DNA from: an uncultured Poribacteria bacterium
GTDB lineage: Bacteria > Poribacteria > WGA-4E > WGA-3G
Reading direction: 5' to 3'
Assembly (NCBI GenBank): GCA_951828515.1
Contig: OX639992.1
Coordinates: forward strand, 682,001 to 746,000
DNA length: 64,000 bases
Shown: one piece after another, positions 5,250-20,481 of the stretch
Layout: every line of letters starts with the position of its first letter
Position numbering within the stretch: position 1 is the stretch's first letter
Translations under genes and position numbers: made by a program
Notes under the pieces: model-generated
The model's input: only the letters and a program-made list of their open reading frames with translations
Databases searched by the model: none
What the model was told of the DNA's origin: nothing

Positions 5250-6359
5250 CTATAATTCCGGGACCTTCGCCTTTTTAATCAGACCCCACGCATTCAGAAG
5301 TTTTCCTGTTGGATTGACGCTTTGAGAAACTTCTCCTGGCTCATATACCTCAACAGTTAGAAGTGGACCTTTATGACCGGCACGCAAGCCTCCCAAAATG
5401 TATATCTTCCCATTTATGACCTCAGCAGCATGTCCAAATTTGCCAACCGGCATATCAGGCACCTGTGTCCACTTATCGGTTTGCGGATCGTAAATTTCAA
5501 TCGTTGAAAGATACATAAACGGTCCATTGCCCCGGAACCCCCCGCCGATGATGTAGATTTTTCCGTTCATCGCGCTTGCCGTGTGCCCTGATTTTGGGGC
5601 AGGCATTTTGGCTGTGGGACCCCATCGATGGGTTTTTGGATTGAACACTTCAACACTGGCGAGAAAGGGACCCGGATGCGCTGGAATCTGGGGCCATCCC
5701 GTCCCACCTATCGCATAGATCTTCCCATCTACGACGGTAGTTGTGAGCCCATCACGAGCATGGAGCAGACTTTGCGATTTTCGCCAGGTGTCTGTCGCTG
5801 GATCATAGACCTCTACGGTTTTCAGCCGCCAGGGCTCCCTCTCCCTCACAAGAAGCCCTATTGCGCTCCCACCAATCGCATAGATTTTCCCAGCCAAAAC
5901 ACACGTACGTGTACTCCTTGGTGTCGGCATATCCGATTTCTGGGTCCAGGTGTCTGTAACCGGATCATACATTTCTACGGTGGAAAGTTCTGTAAGTCTG
6001 TATGAAAAATCTTCACCCTTCTTAATTTTATGCTTTTTTGCGCCACCGATGACGTAGATTTTTTCATTCACAACGGCGGTAGTTACGTTAACCCGGGCGG
6101 TTGGCATATCCGCTTTTGGTTCCCATGTGTCGGTTTTCGGGTCGTACCTTTCTACCTTTGCAATGGACATTTCCCCAATTTTGTCAACTTCACCGCCGAT
6201 GACATAGATTTTTCCATCCACAACGGCAGTAGAAAACAGTGATCGGGCGGTTGGCATATCCGCTTTCCGCGTCCAATTTCCTTCAGCACCGCCTTTAGAA
6301 ATGTTGAGAATCAACAAGATACCGAGAATGAGGAATCCTAAGGTCCAGCGTATTTTCAT
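5250..6359 (-). CDS. Secreted kelch-repeat protein 1
   Basis: A 369-residue protein with a clear signal peptide (MKIRWTLGFLILGILLILN) followed by about six kelch repeats, each with a conserved pattern (P-T-A-R-S, G-K-I-Y-V-I-G-G, V-E-R-Y-D-P-K-T-D-T-W). Six such blades predict a six-bladed beta-propeller outside the cytoplasm, a binding platform of unknown partner. The start is placed at the ATG 6357-6359, not the upstream in-frame ATG at 6395, because TGGAGGG sits directly before it and the signal peptide begins there. The C-terminus (K-L-L-N-A-W-G-L-I-K-K) resembles that of two other kelch proteins here (G-K-L-x-T-R-W-G-E-L-K). Confidence 0.85.
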   Translation of the reverse strand: MKIRWTLGFLILGILLILNISKGGAEGNWTRKADMPTARSLFSTAVVDGKIYVIGGEVDKIGEMSIAKVERYDPKTDTWEPKADMPTARVNVTTAVVNEKIYVIGGAKKHKIKKGEDFSYRLTELSTVEMYDPVTDTWTQKSDMPTPRSTRTCVLAGKIYAIGGSAIGLLVREREPWRLKTVEVYDPATDTWRKSQSLLHARDGLTTTVVDGKIYAIGGTGWPQIPAHPGPFLASVEVFNPKTHRWGPTAKMPAPKSGHTASAMNGKIYIIGGGFRGNGPFMYLSTIEIYDPQTDKWTQVPDMPVGKFGHAAEVINGKIYILGGLRAGHKGPLLTVEVYEPGEVSQSVNPTGKLLNAWGLIKKAKVPEL

Positions 6360-6505
6360 GGTTTCCCTCCATACAGAATAAGGTGTAAAGTCCACTGCGA
6401 TGGTATCGCAATCGATCGCTGCCGCCCAAATTACAACAGATGTCGAAAAAAGTCAAGAAAAATGAGATTCAGACGAAATAATAACTAACATTTTCTCTGA
6501 AACCG

Positions 6506-7603
6506 CTATTGAGGGGACCAAGTGCGAAACCCTTGAAAATCAAAACGAAAGGGGATGACTTCTACTCCTACTTCTCTAAATGCTCTCCTCGCCGAATCTA
6601 TACGATCTGGATTACAATGAAACACTAAGCACCCACCGCCACCGGCACCACAGGCTTTTCCACCGCTACACCCATTTCTTTTGGCAATATTGAACAATTC
6701 ATCAATGCGTCCGGTGTTTATCGACGGATGTAACTGTTTTTGGAAATACCAATTCTCATCAAGCAGTTGACCGAAGTCGGAGAGATTGCGAGCCTGAAAT
6801 ATCTGTTTCATCTCATTGGCAATCCGACGCAGTGCTTTCAAAGCATCATGGGTCTCTCGGTTTCCCGCTTGATATGCAGCGACGACATTCCGCAGAAGAT
6901 CCCCAGAAAAATGCGACTCACCAGTGTAAACAAGCAGCAAAGAGTTGTGAAGTTCTTCAAGGGTTTCCTTTGTCAGTTGAAGGGACGTTGCCTCTACCAA
7001 TTCGCCTTTACATTGCAAGAAATTTATCCCACCGAGTAGGCTGGCGTAGTGATCCTGTTTCCCACAAAGAATTCCCGTTTCCTGTTCAATGATAGCGGCA
7101 ATGTCAACAATTTGGTGTCGCATCAATTTCTTTTCCGTGAAAGTCGAGAGTACGCTCGAAAGAGCAACTCCCAAAGCCCCGGATGCCCCGAGCCCACTTC
7201 CCTTTGGTACATCGCTCCATGTCACAAGATGACACCCTCTCTCGGGACGCAGGCGGGACAATACAGCTTGGGTTAGGTTTAATCCCTGCAAAGATGCGGA
7301 AACGGCTACGGGATGAAAGAACCGTTTGAGATCCACGGCGTAGAGGCTGACACATGAGTCAGGCACAGGGGTGAGACACACATAAACGTGTAAATCAATC
7401 GCAGCGTTGACCACTCTCCCTTCATTCTCTCGCGCGAACGGGATCAAGTCTGTCCATCCGCCCGCAAGGTCGATGCGCGTTGGTGCGCGCGCATAAAGCG
7501 GCACGCGCTGCGAAAAACAGGGTCTTTCATACGCGTGTTCACCGGATGTCCCCTGTTGGTTCCTCTGGGTCTCTTGTGTGGTATGAATCAGAGTCGGATG
7601 CAT
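6506..7603 (-). CDS. GHMP-family sugar kinase (heptose-7-phosphate kinase-like)
   Basis: A 365-residue kinase of the GHMP superfamily. Motif 1 is P-T-R-I-D-L-A-G-G-W-T-D (41-52), the ATP loop is K-G-S-G-L-G-A-S-G-A-L-G (144-155), and the C-terminal glycine motif is G-K-A-C-G-A-G-G-G-G-C. The A-G-G-W-T-D signature is typical of D-glycero-D-manno-heptose 7-phosphate kinases and fucokinases. It would phosphorylate a sugar at C1 as a step toward a nucleotide sugar. It lies on the same strand below the two glycosyltransferases and may feed them. The first 35 residues are an atypical extension, and the true start could be further in. Confidence 0.8.
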   Translation of the reverse strand: MHPTLIHTTQETQRNQQGTSGEHAYERPCFSQRVPLYARAPTRIDLAGGWTDLIPFARENEGRVVNAAIDLHVYVCLTPVPDSCVSLYAVDLKRFFHPVAVSASLQGLNLTQAVLSRLRPERGCHLVTWSDVPKGSGLGASGALGVALSSVLSTFTEKKLMRHQIVDIAAIIEQETGILCGKQDHYASLLGGINFLQCKGELVEATSLQLTKETLEELHNSLLLVYTGESHFSGDLLRNVVAAYQAGNRETHDALKALRRIANEMKQIFQARNLSDFGQLLDENWYFQKQLHPSINTGRIDELFNIAKRNGCSGGKACGAGGGGCLVFHCNPDRIDSARRAFREVGVEVIPFRFDFQGFRTWSPQ

Positions 7604-7655
7604 GCTCGGTTGCGGCTCCTGACATTGCGGTTCGGGAACGTAACATCTCCAATAC

Positions 7656-7964
7656 TTAAACGTCTAAAATCGTGCAATTCCAGAGAAATTCGATCGTGGC
7701 ATAGGTGCCAGCTTTTTGCATCAGTTGAGTATGGGTTTCACGCCATAACTTTGCAGTGCTTTGTAGATGCATCTCTCTATTTTCCCAGAGCTCTGAAACA
7801 CAATACCCAGCCCTATCTTGGTAGGTATCCAAGAGTTCAACTTCCAAGCACCCAGGAGCATTTCGTAGAACAGGAAGCCACTCGGTTTCGAGGAATTTCT
7901 TCAAATCCTTCTTTTTCTTTTTTTCTCGGAGTGTGAGGAGATAAAAAATTCTTGATTTCGCCAT
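7656..7964 (-). CDS. Small dimeric alpha-beta barrel (ABM-like) protein
   Basis: 102 residues. The pattern fits the antibiotic biosynthesis monooxygenase/stress-responsive barrel fold: a first strand F-Y-L-L-T-L, a helix with W-L-P-V-L, then A-P-G-C-L-E-V-E-L-L, then S-E-L-W-E-N-R-E-M-H and a C-terminal strand. The G-C-L and E-x-W positions match the family. Members range from heme-degrading enzymes to monooxygenases and some have no known activity, so no reaction is claimed. It lies 43 bp below the peptidase gene and 52 bp above the sugar kinase, within the same-strand run. Confidence 0.55.
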   Translation of the reverse strand: MAKSRIFYLLTLREKKKKKDLKKFLETEWLPVLRNAPGCLEVELLDTYQDRAGYCVSELWENREMHLQSTAKLWRETHTQLMQKAGTYATIEFLWNCTILDV

Positions 7965-8007
7965 GTTTCTATAATTCCCTATTGACTATTCTAAAGTAAA
8001 CGGTCAC

Positions 8008-9156
8008 TTACTGAAAGACTATAAAAAATGGACCTCGGCAGAGAAGCGTCAAGAGAACTCCGAAACAAATGATCGGCGCGAACCGCAAAGAGTGTTGGAT
8101 TCGGATTTTGTTATCAAAATCCTCGAATCTCCTATCTTCTACGAGCCGTTTCAATTCGGCTGTTTTCTCTTTTGACACCCCGCCGGGCAGCGTTCCAAGA
8201 ACAATGTTTGTGTCTAACACATTTGGGAGGGCAAACCCTTGCTTGTTATAAGAAACTTCTCCATTGTCCGTTTCGATTTTAACGATCTGCTCGGCAGGCA
8301 CCATTCCCTCTTTTAAATCAGAGATGTGTATCTCACGATCAAGCATCATATCGTCGAGATTCTGAATAAACTGCTTCACAAAGAAGAAGAGGGCAATATA
8401 AACAAGATATATCTTCAAGAGCGGAGTGTACGCCTCCGACCAAGCCTTCAGCGTCCAAGGGGTTGTAATTATCATCAATTCAATCAGCACCACACACACG
8501 ACATAGTTGCGGACCCGCTCCAGACCGAATTTCGCTACATAGTAACTGAGGGTAAAATACAGAGACAATACGAGCAATAGTTGATGCCACAATCCCAGTT
8601 CAATCCGTAACCAACTCAGCGAAAGCACAACAAGCTGCCGCAACCCAAGGAGAAAAATGAGCCGGAATATCCTATCGAAAATCTGTTTACGGAAGCCTTC
8701 TTGTCGAAAAATCTGCATCAACGCCTGCCATTTCTGTTGGACATTCGTTTTGATGCAGAGGTAAGTAACAAGGATCACACAATACGGCACGAAAATATTG
8801 ATAATAAGGGTTGTCGGTGTGTATTGCGCGTATGCAGCCGCTTCTGAAAATAATCCTACTGGCATCAGCAGTGCCGCACCCCAAACGAGTTTGGCATCTC
8901 CTGCGGCGAAAATACCAAACCAATAGAGTGCCAAAAAGATTAAAAAGCCGCCAACAACCGTAAAGATACTGCTTAAGAGGCTACTGTCCCCTGACAAAAC
9001 AGCGACAACTTGACTGAGAATGCCAGCGTAGATGAGTCCATAGGCGCAAAAATTTTTGACTTTTCGTTCTCGTAGGTCTGTATAGGTCGCATGTAGACAA
9101 AAAAGGAGAAGCAACAGAATAAATAGATTCTGATAACTGAGCATATGATCACCCAA
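8008..9156 (-). CDS. Prepilin/preflagellin peptidase-like membrane protease (A24 family)
   Basis: 382 residues, mostly membrane segments. It carries both aspartates of the A24 GxGD proteases: T-D-L-R-E-R-K-V-K-N (D27) and F-G-I-F-A-A-G-D-A-K-L (D87; GD present, though the usual GMGD reads AAGD). Known relatives cleave the leader of type IV pilin-like or archaellin-like precursors at the cytoplasmic face. A long hydrophobic middle and a late H-I-S-D-L-K-E-G-M segment resemble the longer preflagellin-type enzymes. It starts 3 bp below the upstream glycosyltransferase stop, so it shares an operon with it. An ATG four codons in is an alternative start. No pilin genes are in the window, so its substrate is open. 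Confidence 0.8.
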   Translation of the reverse strand: MGDHMLSYQNLFILLLLLFCLHATYTDLRERKVKNFCAYGLIYAGILSQVVAVLSGDSSLLSSIFTVVGGFLIFLALYWFGIFAAGDAKLVWGAALLMPVGLFSEAAAYAQYTPTTLIINIFVPYCVILVTYLCIKTNVQQKWQALMQIFRQEGFRKQIFDRIFRLIFLLGLRQLVVLSLSWLRIELGLWHQLLLVLSLYFTLSYYVAKFGLERVRNYVVCVVLIELMIITTPWTLKAWSEAYTPLLKIYLVYIALFFFVKQFIQNLDDMMLDREIHISDLKEGMVPAEQIVKIETDNGEVSYNKQGFALPNVLDTNIVLGTLPGGVSKEKTAELKRLVEDRRFEDFDNKIRIQHSLRFAPIICFGVLLTLLCRGPFFIVFQ

Positions 9157-9159
9157 ATT

Positions 9160-10803
9160 TCAGATAAGATTTTCCAAGATTTTTTTGGCATGTTCGGGTT
9201 CCCGGCAGATAGATTCAAGGAGGATTTTGATCTCCATTGGTGTCTGCTCATCCAGAAGGGTCATGGCGATCCCCTGCTCTACATCAATAGGAGTCGGAAC
9301 CCTTGAGATTACTAATGCTTCTGACTCAATCTCACCGGATACCAGATTGTAATGTTTCTTAAAAAGCAACCGATGTTTTGTAGACTTCGGCGGAAGCGTC
9401 GGACACCTGCGAAGATATCGAAATAAATTGAGGATTCGTTGGATGGCTGCTTCCCATGTGTAAGTGGAAACAGCTGCTAAACCTGCCTGTCCGAAGCACC
9501 TTTGCTCTTCAGGATTTTCGAGGAGGAGTTTGAGTTCCTGCGATACGGATTCAACTGGCAATTGGATTGGGTCGAAAAGAGTTGATGACGTTTCAACGAA
9601 TCGGCACGCCCCTGAAATCTCTTCAGGCACAGCGTATCCGCAAACGATGGTTGGAATCCCACAAGCAACGATCTCAAGCAAGAGCAGGGGGGAAGCCCCT
9701 AGAATCGCTGGAAACACTAACACATCTAACGCATTAAAGAGGAACGGACTCGCCTCTTTGTCTTGTAGGGAGGCGATATTAAAAAAGTTGACACATCCAT
9801 CACTTTTGAAATCGTCCATCAGGCTGGAATGAATCACAAGGTAGTTGACGTTAGGATTCGCAACCCGCAGTTTTCGCATGAAGCGAAGCATTTCGTGCGG
9901 ATGGAGTCCCTGCACAACGCCGACTAACGGCTTCTGCAAAATCGCCTCATTTCCGAGTGCCTGAGCCAATTGGTGCTTACACTTTGTTTTATCCATCGGT
10001 TTGAAAATCGACGTGTCCACACCGTAGGGAATCTGATGAAAAACACTCTGGTCGGAGACGACATCGGAAAAGAAGTTCTGTGTCCAAGAAGCATCAGCTG
10101 CAAAAGCGTCGAAATTTCTCAACGCCACCGCTCTCTCCAGCACCGCGTTTCTCGCTGCGTGGCTGACCAAAGCGGCGTTGGAGAGACGAAGGACAACGGG
10201 AATTGTGTTAAATTTGAGGAAGACCTCTTCTCCTTCGGTGAGGGGTGATAGGGCGAGGATGCCATCACAGCCCTTCGGCATAAACTTTGCTGGCGAAAAA
10301 GAGCGATCATTCCTAAAGAAAATCGGTTGAACCCCTTCAGCCCGCACGTCTTCTTCAATTTCTTGGCGATTGTTGTCCGATTCAGACAAGGGCAGATAAA
10401 CATCGGCATGCGCTGCCAGCCGTGCTACCAGATGATGATTTGCGGCACTGGATAAGAAAGGGGTCGTCTCTCTACTCTCGAAAACACCGGGGGACACATA
10501 GATTTTCAATCGATCCTTCGGCGCAGGGGGGTCAAACGTCAGAGGGTCTGAGGAAAATAGGATGCCCATTTCTGAAAGTTCAGAGAGAAACACGAGTGCC
10601 TCAAGAACCTCAGAACGGGAACCGTGTTTGTCAGCGAGCGTGTCAACAATGACATCCGTCTCCGAAACGCTACAAGCATTTAGAATGTCGCAAACAACTT
10701 CATTCACTGGAATAACAACACCCGCATCAAGATCGGCAACGAACCGCTCACCATCGCGTTTGAAATGATGAAGGTTATGCAAATTGCAAGGAAATTCGAT
10801 CAT
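9160..10803 (-). CDS. Glycosyltransferase with PqqD-like N-terminal domain (copy 2)
   Basis: A 547-residue protein. Residues 1-90 (H-L-H-H-F-K-style opening, then R-F-V-A-D-L-D-A-G-V-V, then V-C-D-I-L) resemble the recognition domain at the N-terminus of radical-SAM peptide maturases. The middle and C-terminal parts are a GT-B glycosyltransferase with a degenerate family-4 donor motif (L-L-L-L-E-I-V-A-C-G-I-P). The last 80 residues match the tail of the neighbouring copy. The start is the ATG 10801-10803 with AGAGGGAG upstream; an earlier in-frame ATG would overlap the previous gene by 137 bp. It lies 13 bp below the paralogue. The acceptor may be a peptide, which is inference from the N-terminal domain. 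Confidence 0.75.
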   Translation of the reverse strand: MIEFPCNLHNLHHFKRDGERFVADLDAGVVIPVNEVVCDILNACSVSETDVIVDTLADKHGSRSEVLEALVFLSELSEMGILFSSDPLTFDPPAPKDRLKIYVSPGVFESRETTPFLSSAANHHLVARLAAHADVYLPLSESDNNRQEIEEDVRAEGVQPIFFRNDRSFSPAKFMPKGCDGILALSPLTEGEEVFLKFNTIPVVLRLSNAALVSHAARNAVLERAVALRNFDAFAADASWTQNFFSDVVSDQSVFHQIPYGVDTSIFKPMDKTKCKHQLAQALGNEAILQKPLVGVVQGLHPHEMLRFMRKLRVANPNVNYLVIHSSLMDDFKSDGCVNFFNIASLQDKEASPFLFNALDVLVFPAILGASPLLLLEIVACGIPTIVCGYAVPEEISGACRFVETSSTLFDPIQLPVESVSQELKLLLENPEEQRCFGQAGLAAVSTYTWEAAIQRILNLFRYLRRCPTLPPKSTKHRLLFKKHYNLVSGEIESEALVISRVPTPIDVEQGIAMTLLDEQTPMEIKILLESICREPEHAKKILENLI

Positions 10804-10816
10804 CGTTTTACTCCCT

Positions 10817-12514
10817 CTATCCGTTAACGGCTTCCTGAAAACCAAAAATCTTCTCGAGAATCGCTTCGGCGCGCTCCTGCCCATAAAGATGGTGTAACAC
10901 GGCTTCAACCTCATGTATGCCGTGTTTTTTAAGGAGTGCCAAGGATAACCCATCTTCTATAGGTTGGGCATAGCGGTCCTTCATCAGTGGTCTTTGCTTT
11001 TCAGCAGTAATGTTGTTCAATATGGCTTGACTTTCAATTTGTCTTCGCCGCGTGTTAAAATAAGGGGCGAAAGAGACCGCGAAGTGCCGTTTATATCTGT
11101 CCTCTAACGCTTGGGTTCGTTTCAGTTTCCTGAACAACGCAATGAGATTCTGTGCGGTCTTATCCCACGTAAAAGTTAAGGCTCTCTCTCTCGCCTTTTG
11201 TCCCAATGCCAATCGTGCCTTCTCATCGGTGAGGAGGCTATTGACAGCATCTGCCATTGCGCTTGGTGAAACCCGACCGGCGAAACTGCCAATTTCATTG
11301 TCATACGCCTGTGCTGGCACAACAAGTCCGGCATCGCCGACCACCTCAGGAAGTCCATCGAGGTTCGGCACAATTGGGGGAACTCCACAAGCCATCGTCT
11401 CTAAGAGCGCGAGTCCAAATGTTTCTTCACCGACCATTGATGGGAAACAGTAAACGTCAAAAGCACTCAAAAGTCGCGCGAGTTGATCTCTGGGTTGCTG
11501 TGGTGCACAAATCAGATTCGGGGGAAGTCGCTGATGCGCGTAGATATTGAGCGTCGGCGCGGTAAGAAGGAAACAGACGTGTGGGAGGTGTCTCGCGATT
11601 TTTATGTAAATCCCCGCACCTTTCTCAGGTTGAAACCTTGAGAAGAAACCGACAACAGGTGAAGCAGCAATTTGAGGGGCATTGAGTCGCTTGGCAACCT
11701 CAATTTTCGCTTTCCCTTTGTCCAATGGATAAAACTTCTTATGATCAACTCCCAGCGGGATAGTATGAAAAATATCCGTGTCAGAGACGAACCGGCTGTA
11801 GAGATCCTTCACGGAGTCCGTTGGCACCAAAAAGGCATCAAAAGGGCGCATCTCCGCATACCAGAACAATCCGGCATTAATGACATCGCCATTGTGCCCT
11901 CTTGCAGAATAGAGCGGGACGACAAACGGGGCATCTATACTCTGTAGGAGCGAAAGAAACCGCTTTGCCTGATGACTTTCTAACAGCACGCCGTCATAAT
12001 TGTTTTTCATCAATTTTAAACGAGCCGATTTATCGTTGAATTGGAACCTGATACCTTCCACATTCTCATTGAATTTTTCGTCGCGCTCACCTACCACATC
12101 AAGAGACGCATACGTTCCCAGAGCCTTGATGAGATTGTGATGTGCCACCGACACCCCACCCGCTGCGCGTGTGATGTCAGCCGCATAGCGACTCCTTTGC
12201 AGGACAAGTATTTTCATTTTCTGAGAGGTTTCTGATCCTAACGCGGGTATATTTCTTTCGAGGCTGGAAAAAAGCACCCCTTGCTGCTCCAGTGTCGCCA
12301 GTGATTCTAATGCTTCAATGACGAAATCAGTGTCATATTTTTTCCCAAGCGTCTCTATGATCTCTTCACTTGAACCTGTTGGACATAGGTCCAGAATATC
12401 CCAGACAATATTATCGATTTCCAAGACAACGCATTGGCTCAGGTCTGCGACATACAGACGGTCGCCCTGTCGGAATTTATGTAGATGTGTGGTAGATTTC
12501 GGACATACGAACAT
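10817..12514 (-). CDS. Glycosyltransferase family 4 with PqqD-like N-terminal domain (copy 1)
   Basis: A 565-residue protein. Residues 1-90 (T-H-L-H-K-F-R-Q-G-D-R-L-Y-V-A-D-L, then V-W-D-I-L-D-L, then L-E-Q-Q-G-V-L-F) match the same N-terminal domain as the next gene. It then has a clear GT4 architecture: a V-A-H-H-N-L-I-K-A-L-G acceptor-side loop, P-V-V-G-F-F-S-R-F-Q-P-E-K-G, and the E-x7-E donor motif E-T-F-G-L-A-L-L-E-T-M-A-C-G. It probably transfers a sugar from a nucleotide donor in the cytoplasm. The start is taken at 12514, preceded by GAGGA and 13 bp after the cytochrome gene stop. The upstream ATG at 12589 overlaps that gene. Confidence 0.82.
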   Translation of the reverse strand: MFVCPKSTTHLHKFRQGDRLYVADLSQCVVLEIDNIVWDILDLCPTGSSEEIIETLGKKYDTDFVIEALESLATLEQQGVLFSSLERNIPALGSETSQKMKILVLQRSRYAADITRAAGGVSVAHHNLIKALGTYASLDVVGERDEKFNENVEGIRFQFNDKSARLKLMKNNYDGVLLESHQAKRFLSLLQSIDAPFVVPLYSARGHNGDVINAGLFWYAEMRPFDAFLVPTDSVKDLYSRFVSDTDIFHTIPLGVDHKKFYPLDKGKAKIEVAKRLNAPQIAASPVVGFFSRFQPEKGAGIYIKIARHLPHVCFLLTAPTLNIYAHQRLPPNLICAPQQPRDQLARLLSAFDVYCFPSMVGEETFGLALLETMACGVPPIVPNLDGLPEVVGDAGLVVPAQAYDNEIGSFAGRVSPSAMADAVNSLLTDEKARLALGQKARERALTFTWDKTAQNLIALFRKLKRTQALEDRYKRHFAVSFAPYFNTRRRQIESQAILNNITAEKQRPLMKDRYAQPIEDGLSLALLKKHGIHEVEAVLHHLYGQERAEAILEKIFGFQEAVNG

Positions 12515-12527
12515 CGTGCATTCCTCG

Positions 12528-14504
12528 CTAACGGCAGGTTTCTTTAACTTTTCCACGCCAAAGTCCACCGTCGATAATTCGTCCATCAATGACTAAAGTC
12601 GGAGACCCTTTGATATTAAGTTCCTTCGTTCTTTGTATTTCCTTGACAAGTTCCAATGCCAATTTTTCCGATTCAACGGCTTGTGCGATCCGCGCTACAT
12701 CCAGTTCAATCTCTTTCGCACAATTCACCCACGCTTCCTGAAGGTGATCGGCGCGGCAGAGCAAGTAATCAAAGAGTTTATCCGGATATAGTTCAGCGAT
12801 AACCATTTGTCGCTTGTTCTCAATGAGTTCGGGTTCACCGTGCAGACTTGTAAACTTGACCTGTTCACTTGTCTTTTCCTCAGATACCTCTTCTCTACCT
12901 ACAATAAACCGTAGCTTAAAATCAATTGTATCCCGATACGTTTCAAAAAACGGCAGCAGTTCCTGCTCTGCTTGCACACCGTAGGGGCAATACGACATCA
13001 CAAAGAGTTCAATCTCTGGTTTCATCGGTCCACGCATGCGCTGCTCGAGAATCTGCTTAAGGCTCAACTCTGATCGACTGTGATCGACTTCAGGCATCAC
13101 CTGTTCGACAAGCGCATCAAACCCTGGAGAATGCTCAGGCGTATGACACGCCATGCAAACTTTTTCAGGCACTTGCCCGCGAGTATTCTCTTTCAGCGGC
13201 GTGTAAACGTGTTGTTTACCGGGACCGTGGCAGGTTTCACAGCCGACATCCACAAGATGTGCACGTTCTGTGTTACCTATCTCGTAACCGCTCTCATACC
13301 CCGATCCAGTGACGTGGCAGGTGATGCATTCGGGATAATGCTCCCTACCAATTGTCCGCAAGGTGTTAAATGCAGTCGCATGCGAGGAGTGAGACCACTG
13401 GCTGAACTCTTTTTGATGGCATTCTTGGCATGCCTGAGAACCGATGTAACTGTTGGTCTCATCCTGTTCAAAAGGTTCCGAGGAAAATAATCGGTGACTG
13501 ACAATTTGCAATTGATGGTCGGTAGCGACTTGATGATAGAAATCATCCAATAGTTTCCTTACCTCCAAATCGTCGGAGACCTGCTCGGTTAGGGCAATTT
13601 GCTGAATGTCCACCTCTGTGTCGGTTAGTATCAACGCACCGAGTGTTTTCCCTTTAGCATTACAATACGCCAATAAGACATCGCCAACTTTTTCGGTTTC
13701 GCCTTCATAAGGACTCAAAATTGCTGAAAGATTTGGATATTTCTCTGCCAACGCCCTATTGACTTCTGGAAGAGCATGACTCAGGACAACAACGAAATCG
13801 GATTGCGCTCGAACTGCGGACAGAAGTGAATTGAGTCTATCAGAAAAGGATGCGATTTCTGTGGTGTCGTTAATGCTGAGAGCGACCACACCAATGCGTT
13901 TTTCGTTAACTGTTTTTATTAAATACGAGTCAGAATCATTGGCTAACTCTGAACCCAAAAGTGTAAACGACACGTCAACTTCCCGATTCTGAACAATTTC
14001 AGTCTCTGCATCAAAGGGAAAGAGGGCATCATACCCCATCATTTTCATCGCCGTTAGGGTTGTTTGCACACGATGTTGGTCTCGGCTATGAACCTCATTT
14101 TCGGTTGAAAGGTTATCCGATTCAAACGAATGGGGTTTCATGCTTGGGTGTTGAGAAGGTTGGATGCCACCGAGATCTACCAACAACGGAGAAAACCCGG
14201 TTTCTCGGATACGAGCGATTGCTTTTGCACGCCTCGGTAATCCACCGGATTGCCCGATGAAGCAACCGCATGGCTCAAGTTGTGCGTGTGTGTTCCCCGT
14301 GAAAAGAAGGAGTGGTGTGCCGTCTGGTGAAACCTGTTTCAACTGGTGGAGATAGTCCGTCAAAGGTGTCGCCTGAATCTGAGAAGCAAGCTGTTTTGTT
14401 TCTCTAATGTGTTGTAACCGTTTCGCTTCGCTCCATTTCTGATAAGCAAAGGGACCTATAACAATAACAGTCAGAACCAACGTAAGTAAGATGTATCTTT
14501 TCAC
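12528..14504 (-). CDS. Exported four-heme cytochrome fused to a thioredoxin-fold domain
   Basis: About 658 residues with an N-terminal membrane anchor or signal (Y-I-L-L-T-L-V-L-T-V-I-V-I). The first third resembles the metallophosphatase-like part of 5'-nucleotidase relatives (N-T-H-A-Q-L-E-P-C-G-C). The middle is a cytochrome c-554-like domain with four CxxCH sites: CQECH, CITCH, CETCH, CMACH. The C-terminal 170 residues are a DsbA/thioredoxin fold with M-S-Y-C-P-Y-G-V-Q-A-E, a single active Cys in place of CxxC, and a cis-proline segment G-S-P-T-L. The start is the GTG at 14504 with GAGGG upstream; a TTG four codons earlier is less likely. It is the first gene of the run cytochrome, two glycosyltransferases, peptidase (13, 13 and 3 bp gaps). 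A truncated copy of its 5' end lies at 17764-17925. Confidence 0.8.
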   Translation of the reverse strand: MKRYILLTLVLTVIVIGPFAYQKWSEAKRLQHIRETKQLASQIQATPLTDYLHQLKQVSPDGTPLLLFTGNTHAQLEPCGCFIGQSGGLPRRAKAIARIRETGFSPLLVDLGGIQPSQHPSMKPHSFESDNLSTENEVHSRDQHRVQTTLTAMKMMGYDALFPFDAETEIVQNREVDVSFTLLGSELANDSDSYLIKTVNEKRIGVVALSINDTTEIASFSDRLNSLLSAVRAQSDFVVVLSHALPEVNRALAEKYPNLSAILSPYEGETEKVGDVLLAYCNAKGKTLGALILTDTEVDIQQIALTEQVSDDLEVRKLLDDFYHQVATDHQLQIVSHRLFSSEPFEQDETNSYIGSQACQECHQKEFSQWSHSSHATAFNTLRTIGREHYPECITCHVTGSGYESGYEIGNTERAHLVDVGCETCHGPGKQHVYTPLKENTRGQVPEKVCMACHTPEHSPGFDALVEQVMPEVDHSRSELSLKQILEQRMRGPMKPEIELFVMSYCPYGVQAEQELLPFFETYRDTIDFKLRFIVGREEVSEEKTSEQVKFTSLHGEPELIENKRQMVIAELYPDKLFDYLLCRADHLQEAWVNCAKEIELDVARIAQAVESEKLALELVKEIQRTKELNIKGSPTLVIDGRIIDGGLWRGKVKETCR

Positions 14505-14611
14505 AAAAACCCTCAATCTCCCAAAATTTAGTAATTGTAAACGATTATGACTCTTTTTAAGGTTGATTTTGTTGTGCTTTTAGCCCATCCCAACGTGTGG
14601 ACGGTTTGTTG

Positions 14612-15652
14612 TTACTGCACGGAAGTTGGTATTGAATACCTTGATACTCGTAATAAATTCCCAAATTTCTCCATGTTCCCAAAAACATAGATAGTACCGT
14701 TGACTGCCTCTGTACCAAAAGGCTTAAGAGACCTTGGTATTGATGGAATATCGCTCCACTTGTCTGTCTCTGGATTATACACGTCCACTGTCATAACACC
14801 CTTAGTGTGTCTGCCTCGCCAAACGAAACCACCGATCAGATAGATTTCGCTATCAACAACAACTGTCGAAAACGACAGCCTGATATCTGGCATATCTTTT
14901 TCCTTGCGCCATCGGTTGGTCTTAGGATCATATTCCTCAATGACTCTCAGGAAGGGACCACCTCGATTCCCAATTTCCGGCCACCCCCGCCCACCAATAG
15001 CATAAATCCGATCATTGGCGACTTCTACACCTAAAACAGCGCGTTTGGTCGGCATATTTGCTCGTTCTACCCACGTATCAGTGGCAGGATCATAGGCTTC
15101 TACAAGGTCAATGCGCCTAGGACTCTCAGGATCCCTGTCCATAGGGTGAACGTACCCACCAACAGCATAAATTTTTCCAGCAACTACACCTGCTCCAAAC
15201 AAGGCGCGAGGGACAGACATATCCTGTTTTCTACTCCAAGTATCGGTTTGCGGATCATAGACCTCAACAATTTTTAGAATCTTGAAATTTTCACCACGAT
15301 TGTCTATACCTGCATATCCACCCATAACGTAGATTTTACCATCAATCACCGCCGTTGTTGGAGCTGCCCGGGCTGTCGGCATATCCGCGCCCCTCCTCCA
15401 TCTATTGCTTTCTGGATTGTAGACTTCCACCAGTGACATTCCAAAAGGACCTTTCCTGTTTCCAAAGAGGGTGCCGCCGATAAGATAAATTTTACCATCG
15501 ACAACAGCCGTGGAGAAATCTTTTCTCTTGGTTGGAATCTTAGTTATCAATTCCCAATCTTCACCAGCAAAGGATTCTATCCCCATAAGTAATATAAGGA
15601 CTACGACGCCTCCAATAACAATGAATCTTAGGAAATTAAGAGTTCTGAGCAT
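14612..15652 (-). CDS. Secreted kelch-repeat protein 2 (C-terminus frameshifted)
   Basis: 346 residues with a signal peptide (FLRFIVIGGVVVLILLMGI) and six kelch repeats closely related to the next two kelch genes. The start is the ATG at 15652 with GGAG upstream. The C-terminus ends I-P-T-S-V-Q. The two paralogues instead end in V-E-V-x-D-T-G ... G-K-L-x-T-R-W-G-E-L-K. The matching codons are still present here but in other frames: V-F-N-T-N-F-R-A-V-T-T-N-R in one, then P-S-T-R-W-D-G-L-K-A-Q-Q-N-Q-P up to a TAA near 14560 in another. So small indels have changed the last part of the protein. It precedes the cytochrome gene by about 107 bp. Confidence 0.82.
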   Translation of the reverse strand: MLRTLNFLRFIVIGGVVVLILLMGIESFAGEDWELITKIPTKRKDFSTAVVDGKIYLIGGTLFGNRKGPFGMSLVEVYNPESNRWRRGADMPTARAAPTTAVIDGKIYVMGGYAGIDNRGENFKILKIVEVYDPQTDTWSRKQDMSVPRALFGAGVVAGKIYAVGGYVHPMDRDPESPRRIDLVEAYDPATDTWVERANMPTKRAVLGVEVANDRIYAIGGRGWPEIGNRGGPFLRVIEEYDPKTNRWRKEKDMPDIRLSFSTVVVDSEIYLIGGFVWRGRHTKGVMTVDVYNPETDKWSDIPSIPRSLKPFGTEAVNGTIYVFGNMEKFGNLLRVSRYSIPTSVQ

Positions 15653-15770
15653 TCGTATTTCTCCGCGTTTTGTCGATATAAACGGTCTTCCGGACATCAA
15701 AAATCGGCAACATTGAATTAGAGACAGCGGTTAGAAGCAAGTGAGAAAATCAAGCATCAGATTTCCGATT

Positions 15771-16859
15771 TTAAGGTTGACTTTGGGGTTGTGCTTTGAG
15801 TTCACCCCAGCGCGTGGAAAGTTTGCCTGTTGCTGTGACGGCACGAAACCCGGTATCGAGTACCTCAACGTCCAGAGAAAGTTCTCTGTTTTCTCTTTCG
15901 CTACCAAGGATATATATTTTGCCGTTGACTGCTGCTGCATCGAACGGGGTATTTCCTGCTGGCATCGGCGGCCCCTCATCCCATCTCTCTGTCTCTGGAT
16001 CATAGACTTCCACAGTAGCTAAGTACTTTTCAAACCCAACACCTCCATGACCTCCAATGAGATAGATTTTATCATCAACGACGACCGTCGAAAATGCGAT
16101 TTTGAGATTCGGCAGGTCAGGTTTCTTCTGCCAGCGGTTCGTTTTGGGTTGATACGTTTCAATGGTGGCAAGTTTAGGTCCTCCTTGACCATCATGCGGC
16201 CATCCGGACCCAGCAATGACGTAAATAGTGTCTCGAACAACCGCTGTCTCAACGTCACTGCGTATGGTAGGCATATTCGCGCGTTCTACCCACCTATCGC
16301 TGGCAGGGTCGTAGACTTCTACGAGATCCAGCCGCCACGGATCCTCAAAGGGATTCTTGCCGCCCATGACATAGATTTTCTTCTTAACCACACCGATACC
16401 AAATCCAAAGCGAGACAGGGACATATCCTGTTTTCTCGCCCACGTGTCGGTTTGCGGATCATAAACCTCAACAATTTTTAGAATCTTGAAATTTTCACCG
16501 CGATTGTCTATTCCCGCATATCCACCCATAACGTAGATTCTACCATCAATCACGGTTGTTGCTGGTTTTGCTCGGGCGGTCGGCATATCCGCGCCTCTCC
16601 TCCAACTATTGTTTTCTGGATCGTAGATTTCCACCAGTGACATTCCAAAGGGACCTTTTCTGTTTTCAAAAAGGGTGCCGCCGATGAGATAGATTTTACC
16701 GTCAACGACTGCGGTCGAGAATGCTGATCTCTTTGTTGGAAGTTGAGAGATAACTTCCCATTCTTCCGCAGCAATGTTTTCTATAGTTACATCGAATAGA
16801 ACAACAGCAGCTAAGCCGACAACAATCCATCGTAGATGTTGAAGCGTTTTGAACATCAT
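15771..16859 (-). CDS. Secreted kelch-repeat protein 3
   Basis: 362 residues: a signal peptide (about 1-30, ending near N-I-A-A-E), then six kelch repeats with the blade pattern K-I-Y-L-I-G-G and V-E-V-Y-D-P-E-T-E-R-W, and the conserved C-terminus G-K-L-S-T-R-W-G-E-L-K. It is highly similar to the kelch genes on either side, for example the shared stretch K-I-L-K-I-V-E-V-Y-D-P-Q-T-D-T-W, showing recent tandem duplication. GAGGA precedes the ATG pair at 16859/16856. It lies downstream of the small peptide gene, separated by a large hairpin. Confidence 0.85.
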   Translation of the reverse strand: MMFKTLQHLRWIVVGLAAVVLFDVTIENIAAEEWEVISQLPTKRSAFSTAVVDGKIYLIGGTLFENRKGPFGMSLVEIYDPENNSWRRGADMPTARAKPATTVIDGRIYVMGGYAGIDNRGENFKILKIVEVYDPQTDTWARKQDMSLSRFGFGIGVVKKKIYVMGGKNPFEDPWRLDLVEVYDPASDRWVERANMPTIRSDVETAVVRDTIYVIAGSGWPHDGQGGPKLATIETYQPKTNRWQKKPDLPNLKIAFSTVVVDDKIYLIGGHGGVGFEKYLATVEVYDPETERWDEGPPMPAGNTPFDAAAVNGKIYILGSERENRELSLDVEVLDTGFRAVTATGKLSTRWGELKAQPQSQP

Positions 16860-16896
16860 GAGTTCCTCGTATCGACATAAGTAGGATGTCAGTAGT

Positions 16897-16942
16897 GTAC
16901 GGGAAAGTAGAGAAGTGCTACCTTCTCAGACTTTTCCCGCAC
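16897..16942. promoter_or_regulatory. Conserved hairpin between the peptide gene and kelch 3
   Basis: Inverted repeat with arms GTACGGGAAAGTAGAGAAG and CTTCTCAGACTTTTCCCGCAC around a short loop. An equivalent hairpin with the same GTGCGG ... CCCGCAC ends sits in the same position before the kelch gene at 17983-19125 (19167-19212). No run of T follows, so it is not a plain intrinsic terminator. It may be a processing, attenuation or protein-binding site. Confidence 0.6.
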
Positions 16943-16967
16943 TTGAGAGGTACTTACTCAGCACCCA

Positions 16968-17243
16968 TTATACGCAGTCATACCACCAGGACTTGTCCTC
17001 GTGTTGACCCGATATACAAATTTCATGATGGTTACACCATTTGAAGTTGTCAGGTTCACCACATTTATAGTGCTCCGCGTCATGAGCCTCTATGGTATCA
17101 GGCGCGAGTAACATTGAAGCGAAGATCGCTCCTGTTGCTACTGTGCCAGCGACTAAGGCATTCTTATGCGCAACATGACCCTCTTCTTTGACGAAGAAGT
17201 CGCTGAGACGCTGTTTCGTGAGTTCGACTACATGAGTCTGCAT
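16968..17243 (-). CDS. Small exported Cys-containing peptide
   Basis: A 91-residue product. The N-terminal part is polar (H-V-V-E-L-T-K-Q-R-L-S-D-F-F-V-K-E-E-G), followed by a hydrophobic segment (A-L-V-A-G-T-V-A-T-G-A-I-F-A-S-M-L-L-A-P) and a 37-residue tail with four Cys, several His and a W-W pair near the end (K-S-W-W-Y-D-C-V). The layout suits either a Sec-exported mini-protein with a long leader or a precursor peptide with leader and core. AAGGAGA precedes the ATG at 10 bp. It sits inside the island of kelch propellers, cytochrome/thioredoxin fusion and peptide-recognition-like glycosyltransferases on the same strand. I do not recognise the family. Confidence 0.6.
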   Translation of the reverse strand: MQTHVVELTKQRLSDFFVKEEGHVAHKNALVAGTVATGAIFASMLLAPDTIEAHDAEHYKCGEPDNFKWCNHHEICISGQHEDKSWWYDCV

Positions 17244-17318
17244 TAGAGTTTATCTCCTTTTCTGTAAGGTGCTCACCTAAAAGTCTCACAAAATACATCC
17301 ATCCTATGCTACAATTAG

Positions 17319-17355
17319 GTTAGCACTGTCAGAGTCAGGTTATGGCAGTGCTAAC
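17319..17355. promoter_or_regulatory. Perfect 10-bp stem upstream of the peptide gene
   Basis: GTTAGCACTG and CAGTGCTAAC are perfectly complementary and separated by 17 bases. The stem lies about 75 bp upstream of the peptide start. No T-run adjoins either side. It could be an operator or a 5'-leader structure. Confidence 0.5.
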
Positions 17356-17763
17356 CGCGCCGATCGGTGTTCTCATCACCGGCGGCGCACCTATGAAAAA
17401 TATCGGAGACTGCCATTACAAAAACGGTTTCGTCTGAAAAAACGAAAATCGTCAACAACGGTGAGTTCGGTATAAACATTAATGCATCCGCACCGAAACT
17501 CACGTTAGACCAGAGTAAGCAAGTTCCGTGCCAATCCCTTTCATAAAACACGCAATCTCTGTCGAACACACTGAAATTGAGAGTGCAGTACTTCCCCTAT
17601 AATACGTCCAAAACACAGGCACACATTCGGTTCACCAAAAACTATCCCTGAAGAAATGGAACCCTCTCCTTATTCGCAAATTCCCTTGTTATTCCTCGAA
17701 TCCAGACCTATTTCAAACTGCGTCCCTTTGACGCGATGCGTCCTGTTGACGCACATAATCGCG
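17356..17763. other. Intergenic stretch without a supported gene
   Basis: It holds only a 72-codon minus-strand frame (17351-17569) with no recognisable domain. The frame has a plausible hydrophobic segment but no convincing ribosome site. The left part probably carries the promoter of the peptide gene. Nothing else was recognised. Confidence 0.4.
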
Positions 17764-17925
17764 TCATTCTGGCAATGCCAACTTCTGCATCACATGAATC
17801 TGAGCAGCGAGTTGTTTTGTCTCTCTAATATGTTGTAACCGTTTCGCTTCGCTCCATTTCTGATAAGCAAAGGGACCTATAACAATAACAGTCAGAACCA
17901 ACGTAAGGAAGATGTATCTTTTCAA
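17764..17925 (-). pseudogene. Truncated duplicate of the 5' end of the cytochrome/thioredoxin gene
   Basis: Directly below the kelch gene at 17983-19125 lies a near-identical copy of the first 45 or so codons of the gene at 12528-14504: the segment encoding Y-I-F-L-T-L-V-L-T-V-I-V-I and A-Y-Q-K-W-S-E-A-K-R-L-Q-H-I. After I-H the similarity stops, and the frame ends at TGA 17764-17766 some ten codons later. The start codon is TTG where the intact gene has GTG. The order kelch then cytochrome is the same in both places. This marks the edge of an old tandem duplication. Confidence 0.82.
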
Positions 17926-17982
17926 AAAAATCCTCAGTTTCTCAAAATTTAGACAGTTGTAAACAAACGATTGTCAGTCTTT

Positions 17983-19125
17983 TTAGGGCTGGTTTTGATA
18001 TTCTGCTTTGAGTTCACCCCAGCGCGTCGGAAGTTTTCCACGCGCCTCAACCGGACGAGCCCCGGTATCAAACACTTCAACGATTGGAGAAAGTTCCCAA
18101 TCTTTGTCATAGCCACCAAAGACATAAATCTTGCCGTTGACCGCCGCTACACCAAATGGCGACTTTACGGTTGGCCTCACAGCAATCACACGCCATCTCT
18201 CAGTAGCCGGCTCATACACTTCGACGGGAGCAGGGCGCCTATCACCCGCTTGCAAATCGGTACCTCCAATGAGATAGATTTTATCCGCAACAACGACTGT
18301 CGAAAATATCCATCTCAGATTTGGTATGTCAGGTTTCTTCCGCCAGCGGTTTGTTTTGGGATGATACGCTTCAATGGTGGCAAGCGCGGGGCCGCCTTGA
18401 CCATCATGGGGCCACCCGGACCCGCCAATGGCATAAATGGTCTCCCGAACAACTCCTGTCCCAACGCCATCGCGTCTTGTTGGCATGTCCACCCGCTTTG
18501 CCCAAGTATCACTGACAGGGTCATAGACTTCCACGAGATCAGTGCGCCACGGATCCTCAGGCTTCTTGTCCCTTGGACGAACATACCCACCAATGGCATA
18601 GATTTTGCCAGCAACCACACCGGTGCCGAACTGTGTCCGGGGAATGGACATGTCCTGCTTTCTGATCCACGTATCGGTTTGCGGGTCATACATCTCAACA
18701 ACGTCCAGATTTTTCAAATTCACGCCCCGGTTGTCTTTCCCGACGTATCCTGCCAAGACATAGATCTTGCCATCAACAACAGCTGTCATGGGTTCGGACC
18801 GGGCGGTCGGAATATCAGCGACGCGCTCCCAACTGTTGGTTTGTGGATCATAGACTTCTACCAGGGACATCCCAAAAGGACCCCGCCAAATACCAGGACC
18901 AAGCTCGGGCCGCTCAACACCCCGAAGATTTTCAAAGGGTGTGCCACCGATGAGATAAATCTTACCATCTACCACGGCGGTTGAGAACTCACCTCGCTGT
19001 GTTGGGAGTTCGGAGATGATCTGCCACTCATTCGCAGCAGCATTTTCCATTGCAAAATGAGAGAGCACCACAACGATTCCCCATCCAACCATACTCCATT
19101 GTAAGAAACGAAATATTCTGAACAT
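17983..19125 (-). CDS. Secreted kelch-repeat protein 4
   Basis: 380 residues: an N-terminal signal (F-R-I-F-R-F-L-Q-W ... M-E-N-A-A-A), six kelch repeats, and the C-terminal G-K-L-P-T-R-W-G-E-L-K. It has an insertion of about 11 residues after blade one compared with kelch 2 and 3 (N-L-R-G-V-E-R-P-E-L-G-P). The start is placed at ATG 19125 with AAGGGG upstream; the in-frame ATG at 19155 lacks one. It is the most upstream kelch gene of the island, preceded by the conserved hairpin at 19167-19212. Confidence 0.85.
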   Translation of the reverse strand: MFRIFRFLQWSMVGWGIVVVLSHFAMENAAANEWQIISELPTQRGEFSTAVVDGKIYLIGGTPFENLRGVERPELGPGIWRGPFGMSLVEVYDPQTNSWERVADIPTARSEPMTAVVDGKIYVLAGYVGKDNRGVNLKNLDVVEMYDPQTDTWIRKQDMSIPRTQFGTGVVAGKIYAIGGYVRPRDKKPEDPWRTDLVEVYDPVSDTWAKRVDMPTRRDGVGTGVVRETIYAIGGSGWPHDGQGGPALATIEAYHPKTNRWRKKPDIPNLRWIFSTVVVADKIYLIGGTDLQAGDRRPAPVEVYEPATERWRVIAVRPTVKSPFGVAAVNGKIYVFGGYDKDWELSPIVEVFDTGARPVEARGKLPTRWGELKAEYQNQP

Positions 19126-19166
19126 TATTGATGCCCCTTTCTGAATGCAAATCAAATGTCAAGGAT

Positions 19167-19464: not shown

Positions 19465-20481
19465 CTAAATATTGTATCTTTTCAACTTCCTTTGCAACGT
19501 GCGTCTGCCAATTCCTAACACTTTCGCAGCTTCCGTCCGGTTCCCGTCAAGCCATGCTAACGTTTCACGGACGAACGCTTCTTCCATATCTTCAAGCGTC
19601 GCACCGAGAGGGACACCCACGATTTGCTCGTTTTCAGGTGTAGAAATACATTCGGAAACACCTGTATGTCGCTTTTGGTAGATCCGGATATCTTTTCGTA
19701 GATGCATTGGTAAAAGAACTCCATCTCTCGCCAGAGAAGCCCCTCTCTCAATGGCGTTCTTCAATTCCCGGACATTTCCAGGCCAGGGATAGGCTTTGAG
19801 GAGAGAGAGTGTACGCGCTGCCACGCGCAGAACCTTCGATTTAACGATCTCATGATGTTTTTCAAGAAAGTGGGCTACCAACATCTCAATATCCTCCCGT
19901 CGTTCTGATAACAGAGGTAACGATATAGAGGCAACATCCAACCGATAATAGAGGTCTTCACGAAACGTTCTATCTCTAACGGCTTGTGCGAGATCTCTAT
20001 TGGTTGCCGTGACGATCCGGACATCCACTGGAATTGACCTTTCGCCGCCAATGCGCTCAATTTTGTTATCCTCAATCGCTCTTAATAACTTCGGTTGCAG
20101 GGAAAGCGGTATTTCTCCGATTTCATCAAGGAAGAGTGTTCCCTTGTGCGCCCTTTCAAAATTACCGATACGCCGTGCTTCGGCACTCGTAAATGCACCT
20201 TTCTCATGTCCAAACAACTCACTCTCCCATAAGTTCTCTGATATCGCCGCGCAGTTGATAGAAACCATTTCTCCCGATCTACTGCTGTTTTTGTGTAGTG
20301 CACGGGCGACTAACTCTTTACCGGTCCCGGTTTCGCCAAAAATTAGAATTCTCATTGATGTTGCTGCGAAGTGCTCAATTTGTTGTAGGACTTCAAAAAT
20401 CTGCGGACTGTTGCCGATGATTTCACTGTAATCGCCACGTAATGTATTTCTTGACACTATAACTTGGGGCCTCCATATCAA
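19465..20481 (-). CDS. Sigma-54-type AAA+ transcriptional activator without sensor domain
   Basis: 338 residues. The AAA+ domain fills most of the protein: Walker A G-E-T-G-T-G-K-E, the loop G-A-F-T-S-A (canonical GAFTGA, with G changed to S), Walker B T-L-F-L-D-E-I-G-E-I, and R-E-D-L-Y-Y-R-L. A Fis-type helix-turn-helix ends the protein (N-R-T-E-A-A-K-V-L-G-I-G-R-R-T-L-Q-R-K-L-K). No receiver, GAF or PAS domain precedes it, only about 20 residues. The start is uncertain: a TTG at 20481, or a GTG eight codons in at 20457 after GGAGG. It may drive the kelch/peptide island on the same strand, though no -24/-12 promoter was found there. Confidence 0.85.
   Translation of the reverse strand: MIWRPQVIVSRNTLRGDYSEIIGNSPQIFEVLQQIEHFAATSMRILIFGETGTGKELVARALHKNSSRSGEMVSINCAAISENLWESELFGHEKGAFTSAEARRIGNFERAHKGTLFLDEIGEIPLSLQPKLLRAIEDNKIERIGGERSIPVDVRIVTATNRDLAQAVRDRTFREDLYYRLDVASISLPLLSERREDIEMLVAHFLEKHHEIVKSKVLRVAARTLSLLKAYPWPGNVRELKNAIERGASLARDGVLLPMHLRKDIRIYQKRHTGVSECISTPENEQIVGVPLGATLEDMEEAFVRETLAWLDGNRTEAAKVLGIGRRTLQRKLKRYNI

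Follow-up and report, generated by a model that had tools for sequence, protein, structure and literature searches.

The window analysed here comprises 64,000 nucleotides from an uncultured Poribacteria bacterium (GCA_951828515.1, contig OX639992.1, positions 682,001 to 746,000), and contains an island whose genes are all encoded on the minus strand. Every gene named in the original prediction was found. In the order of transcription, the island comprises a sigma-54 activator with AAA and Fis helix-turn-helix domains and no receiver domain, a candidate regulator (19465-20481); a kelch propeller with a C-terminal LPTRWGELK tag (17983-19155); the exported peptide, whose open reading frame was confirmed (16968-17243); a kelch propeller directly downstream of it, with a C-terminal LSTRWGELK tag (15771-16859), and another one without the tag (14612-15700); a multidomain protein that we will refer to as USH (12528-14516); two glycosyltransferases, GT1 (10817-12514) and GT2 (9160-10803); an A24 prepilin-type (GxGD) membrane peptidase with an archaeal-type C-terminal domain (8008-9156); a small ABM-like protein (7656-7964), which is an addition to the earlier gene list; a HddA/fucokinase-like GHMP sugar kinase, probably involved in donor supply (6506-7603); and a fourth kelch propeller ending in a WGLIKK tag (5250-6395). 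The kelch propellers are clearly recognizable (Pfam Kelch_1, E down to 2.5e-70), and two of them shift the limits of the island, one reaching a little beyond the previous end at 19125 and the other sitting before the previous start at 6506. The short intergenic distances (3-13 bp) also held in the run USH-GT1-GT2-A24, with gaps of 13, 13 and 3 bp, the ATG starts of the glycosyltransferases (12514 and 10803) lying downstream of the longest-ORF starts. The predicted fusion of a four-heme cytochrome with a thioredoxin fold corresponds to USH, composed of an N-terminal membrane anchor, a UshA-like PCGC domain, a tetraheme cytochrome c554 (four CxxCH motifs) and a GILT/DsbA-like thioredoxin fold, in which most members of the family present SYCP[FY]G, that is, one Cys rather than CxxC. 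A shortened, 194-bp copy of the 5' end of USH and its upstream DNA (17795-17988, minus strand, aligned with 14374-14562) is located between the peptide and a kelch gene, as a trace of duplication inside the island.

The peptide of the window has 91 residues, and 78 distinct relatives were collected. The genome itself contains 14 matches by single-sequence search, at E values reaching 1 and with the weakest lacking significance by themselves, and 20 by profile. The family presents a conserved leader, followed by a hydrophobic helix and a core variable both in length (22-64 residues) and sequence, which is the architecture of a ribosomal RiPP precursor, found throughout the 78 peptides. In the alignment, Phe16, Glu20, Gly22 and Val24 are conserved (an F-E-G-V leader), and mean identity is 0.44 in the leader and 0.30 in the core, a gapped alignment flattering the short cores. 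Compared with a generic protein background, the peptides are enriched 10-fold in Cys and 5-fold in Trp, and 67 of 76 have an even number of Cys, consistent with disulfides. Ahead of the first Cys of the core, 73 of 76 peptides carry a loose AxA-type motif, the window peptide showing an imperfect IEA at this position. Its AF2 model comprises a helix (3-18), a break (19-24), a second helix (25-45) corresponding to the predicted hydrophobic export segment, and a beta core (58-90, pLDDT 90-94) rich in Cys, Trp and His. A PDB search with this model found nothing below E = 4.4, and the EB, WAP and Dickkopf modules of Pfam matched cores of the family too weakly to be used.

The N-terminal domain of the glycosyltransferases had been proposed to resemble the PqqD/RRE domains of radical-SAM peptide maturases, and profile comparison, AF2 modeling and Foldseek agree that it folds as an RRE (12254-12514 in GT1 and 10540-10803 in GT2, minus strand). 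Searched against the PDB, a profile of 56 such domains gave CteB, a SCIFF maturase, with E = 1.8e-15; the NCBIfam radical-SAM peptide maturase N-terminus was matched by 54 of the 56, Pfam PqqD weakly by 29, and the QhpD N-terminus weakly by three. The model of the GT1 domain (pLDDT 93.9) has the order strand-strand-strand-helix-helix-helix, the bbb-aaa order required of RREs in PMC12710340, and its best Foldseek matches in the PDB are CteB, TbiB1 and a lasso RRE. By profile and model, the domain is a genuine RRE, so that the system includes a maturase of the RiPP type, whose binding to the leader is predicted. Both proteins continue into a GT4-like glycosyltransferase; the EX7E motif is intact in GT1, and its first Glu is replaced by Gly in GT2, which looks catalytically altered by its sequence.

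The island is one copy of a multi-copy cassette recurring in sponge-associated Poribacteria, and a scan of named genomes likewise placed the host in Candidatus Poribacteria. USH, glycosyltransferase, A24 and peptide genes are also present at four further sites of the same genome, and the cassette was found in dozens of other poribacterial loci, a recurrence far from chance. Among 46 loci picked via USH, and thus showing what travels with USH rather than how frequent the cassette is, 40 contain the peptide, 39 A24, 30 GT2 and 29 GT1. Homologues of the peptide had been expected to occur together with the genes for glycosyltransferase and cytochrome, and they do so both at these loci and across 85 genomes of the phylum, where USH was scored as present at E values under about 1e-80 and weaker matches to UshA-cytochrome relatives were left uncounted. 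USH and peptide are both present in 32 genomes, only one of them in 2 and 8, and neither in 43 (Fisher p = 1.4e-13, uncorrected for genome relatedness); for the RRE domain and the peptide, the corresponding numbers are 33, 3, 7 and 42 (p = 3.2e-13, equally uncorrected). Precursor and maturase genes are therefore linked and co-inherited. Outside the phylum, none of the partner genes was found near distant UshA relatives among the fetched loci. Glycosylation would not be universal in the system, since at four loci (L063, L065, L073 and L074) A24 and USH occur with a propeller, in most cases accompanied by the peptide, and no RRE glycosyltransferase is in view, and four of the 85 genomes have peptide and USH but no RRE match. 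Genes for STT3-like oligosaccharyltransferases were observed near such loci (L063:12763-14793 by Pfam match; relatives at L066:8919-11047 and L073:14297-17173), although their membership in the system is not established.

The A24 peptidase of the cassette is distinct from the PilD-like copy of the genome, which has dedicated A24 copies beside that single one. This peptidase and Gly22 are the reasons to consider the peptides as pilin-like small proteins, cut by A24 after the invariant Gly22, with the hydrophobic helix packing into a filament that carries a glycosylated Cys-rich head. A dedicated A24 in 39 of 46 USH loci, the prepilin-like position of Gly22 with Glu20 before it, and the fact that pilins are often glycosylated would speak for this reading. 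Against it, the residue at +5 after Gly22 is Lys and not Glu in most members, the modeled helix is broken at 19-24, and the hydrophobic stretch starts past this break and ends in the AxA-type motif in 73 of 76 peptides; the combination of Gly(-1), Glu(+5) and a continuous hydrophobic helix that defines type IV/Flp prepilins is hence absent. Besides, none of 76 members gave a Flp or N-methylation Pfam match, and no assembly ATPase or secretin was recognised among the cassette genes, in an inspection without name-specific search. We regard a pilin-like role as unlikely.

A second reading is that the glycosyltransferases modify the propeller or a surface glycan, the peptide being a mere neighbouring secreted protein. 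GT4 enzymes and mannose/heptose-type genes are indeed frequent in surface polysaccharide loci, and peptides without any glycosyltransferase also exist. Nonetheless, the RRE domains of known systems bind leader peptides and not sugars, the presence of peptide and RRE co-varies over the 85 genomes, and the class of the leader co-varies with that of the cassette: peptides beginning with M[QRK]xH lie by a long USH in 23 cases and by a short one in 1, and the others in 2 and 45, respectively (p = 2.6e-15). The three exceptions are one peptide with an MQTN leader, which belongs to the first class although the rule does not catch it, and two peptides more than 5 kb from the compared USH. The ABM-like gene appears in 12 loci, and the USH genes less than 8 kb away from it are all of the long type. 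This second reading is accordingly given a low probability. For a glycosylated peptide, the genes for phosphomannomutase (18 loci), HddC/ManC-like, i.e., mannose/heptose-1-phosphate guanylyltransferase-like, proteins (9 loci) and HddA/fucokinase-like proteins (9 loci) in the neighbourhoods suggest that the donor is probably a GDP-sugar, their NCBIfam scores, below the curated cut-offs, not fixing which one.

A strict match to the sigma-54 promoter motif, TGGCACGGAACTTGCT, is found upstream of the peptide gene (17518-17533, minus strand). Of 76 peptide genes, five have such a promoter upstream, while shuffled sequences gave an expectation of 0.02; L042 and L060 contribute two each and the window one, and in all five a kelch gene comes after the peptide. 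Sigma-54 activator genes were found at 4 loci. Several other kelch-adjacent peptides have no such site, so that this regulation would cover part of the family. More broadly, 50 of 82 peptide genes have a PD40 or kelch propeller gene as their immediate downstream neighbour, about four times more than after shuffling the genes of each locus (12.5 +/- 2.9, maximum 23). A large BNR/sortilin-like propeller with a fused ECF sigma factor was also observed (L058:14063-17026), with relatives in 26 loci near cassettes.

Kelch, PD40, LamG and other proteins, mostly bearing signal peptides, share a C-terminal tag, KLxTxWGx[LIV]K, placed 8-14 residues before the stop in all 30 proteins inspected. Its codon pattern occurs at 133 sites of this genome, compared with 5 and 4 for the controls, and the tag is found in 85 of 85 Poribacteria genomes and near chance level in 9 other genomes. 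The NCBIfam sorting-tag models gave no match with seven tagged proteins, and no exosortase was found in this genome. The tag, carried by propellers and by over 100 other poribacterial proteins, is undescribed. In the literature searched (mostly titles and abstracts, without subscription journals and preprints), no paper linking Poribacteria with kelch was found. A 2309-residue frame of this genome (C1:2371768-2375694) matches SprA, a protein of the type IX secretion system, in five collinear segments, all below the threshold (best 3.5e-15), and a divergent route of the type IX kind might read the tag.

The system resembles several known ones in part. Glycocins use a SunS-type enzyme, a double-Gly leader and an ABC exporter. 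Sugar on a disulfide-bonded peptide, as in sublancin, would be common to both, whereas the poribacterial enzymes are GT4 proteins with an RRE, the peptides carry a Sec-type segment, and neither a SunS-type glycosyltransferase nor a C39 ABC exporter was recognised in the cassettes. CteB (5WGG) has the closest RRE in sequence and structure, fused to a radical-SAM/SPASM thioether enzyme instead of a glycosyltransferase; the absence of a radical-SAM maturase, already noted for the window, extends to the surroundings of every cassette of this genome, setting these apart from SCIFF/ranthipeptide and other radical-SAM RiPP clusters. The leader resembles the HxsA3 His-Xaa-Ser family (NF038309) in 31 of 76 peptides (best E = 2.1e-5), but the similarity is limited to the leader, as the poribacterial cores have no His-Xaa-Ser repeats and the cassettes no radical-SAM gene, and hence no HxsB/HxsC pair. 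USH shares the UshA-like domain and c554 cytochrome of the UshA-like PCGU (seleno)protein family (NF041198), with PCGC at the Sec/Cys position, and differs in its additional GILT/DsbA-like C-terminal domain; its score of 206.7 bits stays under the curated threshold of 275 bits. The analogy with amine dehydrogenases that had been drawn for the window did not hold: a redox enzyme of the methylamine/quinohemoprotein amine dehydrogenase kind, formed by peptide and propeller with a protein-derived Trp/Cys cofactor and with USH as heme-bearing maturase, would agree with the Cys- and Trp-rich cores, the adjoining propeller, the four hemes and thioredoxin fold of USH and the weak QhpD match of three RREs, but is very improbable, because no radical-SAM gene (nor QhpD/MauG-type maturation) accompanies the cassettes of this genome, the propellers belong to the kelch or PD40 (TolB-like) families instead of the amine-dehydrogenase type, the cores are hypervariable and keep no catalytic residue constant other than Cys, in contrast to catalytic subunits that contain their own cofactor, and the glycosyltransferases would be left unexplained.

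RRE-glycosyltransferase fusions were reported earlier, as uncharacterised, by RRE-Finder (PMC7470986), and PF00535-type ones in PMC12710340. They share with the proteins described here the fusion itself and a RiPP-like neighbourhood; the poribacterial cassette differs in its paired GT4 enzymes, identified precursor family of 78 members, A24 peptidase and UshA-cytochrome-thioredoxin fusion. No mention of Poribacteria was found in the accessible text of both papers, and the RiPP section of a sponge survey, as far as available, includes NHLP, nif11, lasso and YcaO types, the poribacterial cassette not being among them (PMC9426513). Since no description of the precursor family or the cassette was found in the literature covered (again mostly titles and abstracts, without subscription journals and preprints), we consider it reasonably probable that the poribacterial system is uncharacterised.

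With the co-occurrence and the RRE fold both upheld, the best-supported idea is that a leader-bearing peptide becomes glycosylated and disulfide-bonded. We favour, with fair though far from complete confidence, a RiPP-like system for maturation and export, restricted to the phylum and present in multiple copies, in which RRE-GT4 enzymes would modify a disulfide-rich peptide exported by Sec, A24 serving in its processing and USH as redox partner. The RREs of GT1 and GT2 most likely bind the conserved leader of the precursor, as suggested by fold and co-variation; the later steps are those that the enzyme families would predict. GT1 would place a sugar, probably from a GDP-sugar, on the Cys/Trp-rich core in the cytoplasm, GT2 being perhaps its second or regulatory partner. 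The peptide would then be exported through its hydrophobic Sec-type segment, and either the dedicated A24, signal peptidase I acting at the AxA site, or both may cleave the leader or signal remnant. USH, a putative membrane-anchored tetraheme thiol oxidoreductase, would help to pair the core cysteines, and the mature peptide of 22-64 residues may work with the propeller of the adjacent gene or be displayed by it. Joint action of the peptide with propeller and cytochrome, part of the original prediction, is what gene order suggests. A bolder proposal, which we put forward as rather doubtful, is a new RiPP class, in which paired RRE-GT4 enzymes glycosylate Sec-exported disulfide-rich peptides. 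These would be matured by a peptidase of the prepilin type together with a thiol oxidoreductase carrying hemes, and displayed on propellers whose C-terminal sorting tag occurs throughout the phylum, providing sponge symbionts with a system of diversifying surface ligands.

The favoured maturation and export system would provide a complete and testable set of precursor and enzymes for RRE-guided glycosylation, in an uncultured symbiont phylum mined for natural products. Many hypervariable, disulfide-rich peptides per genome are predicted from it, and A24 peptidases would be tied to something unlike pilus assembly.
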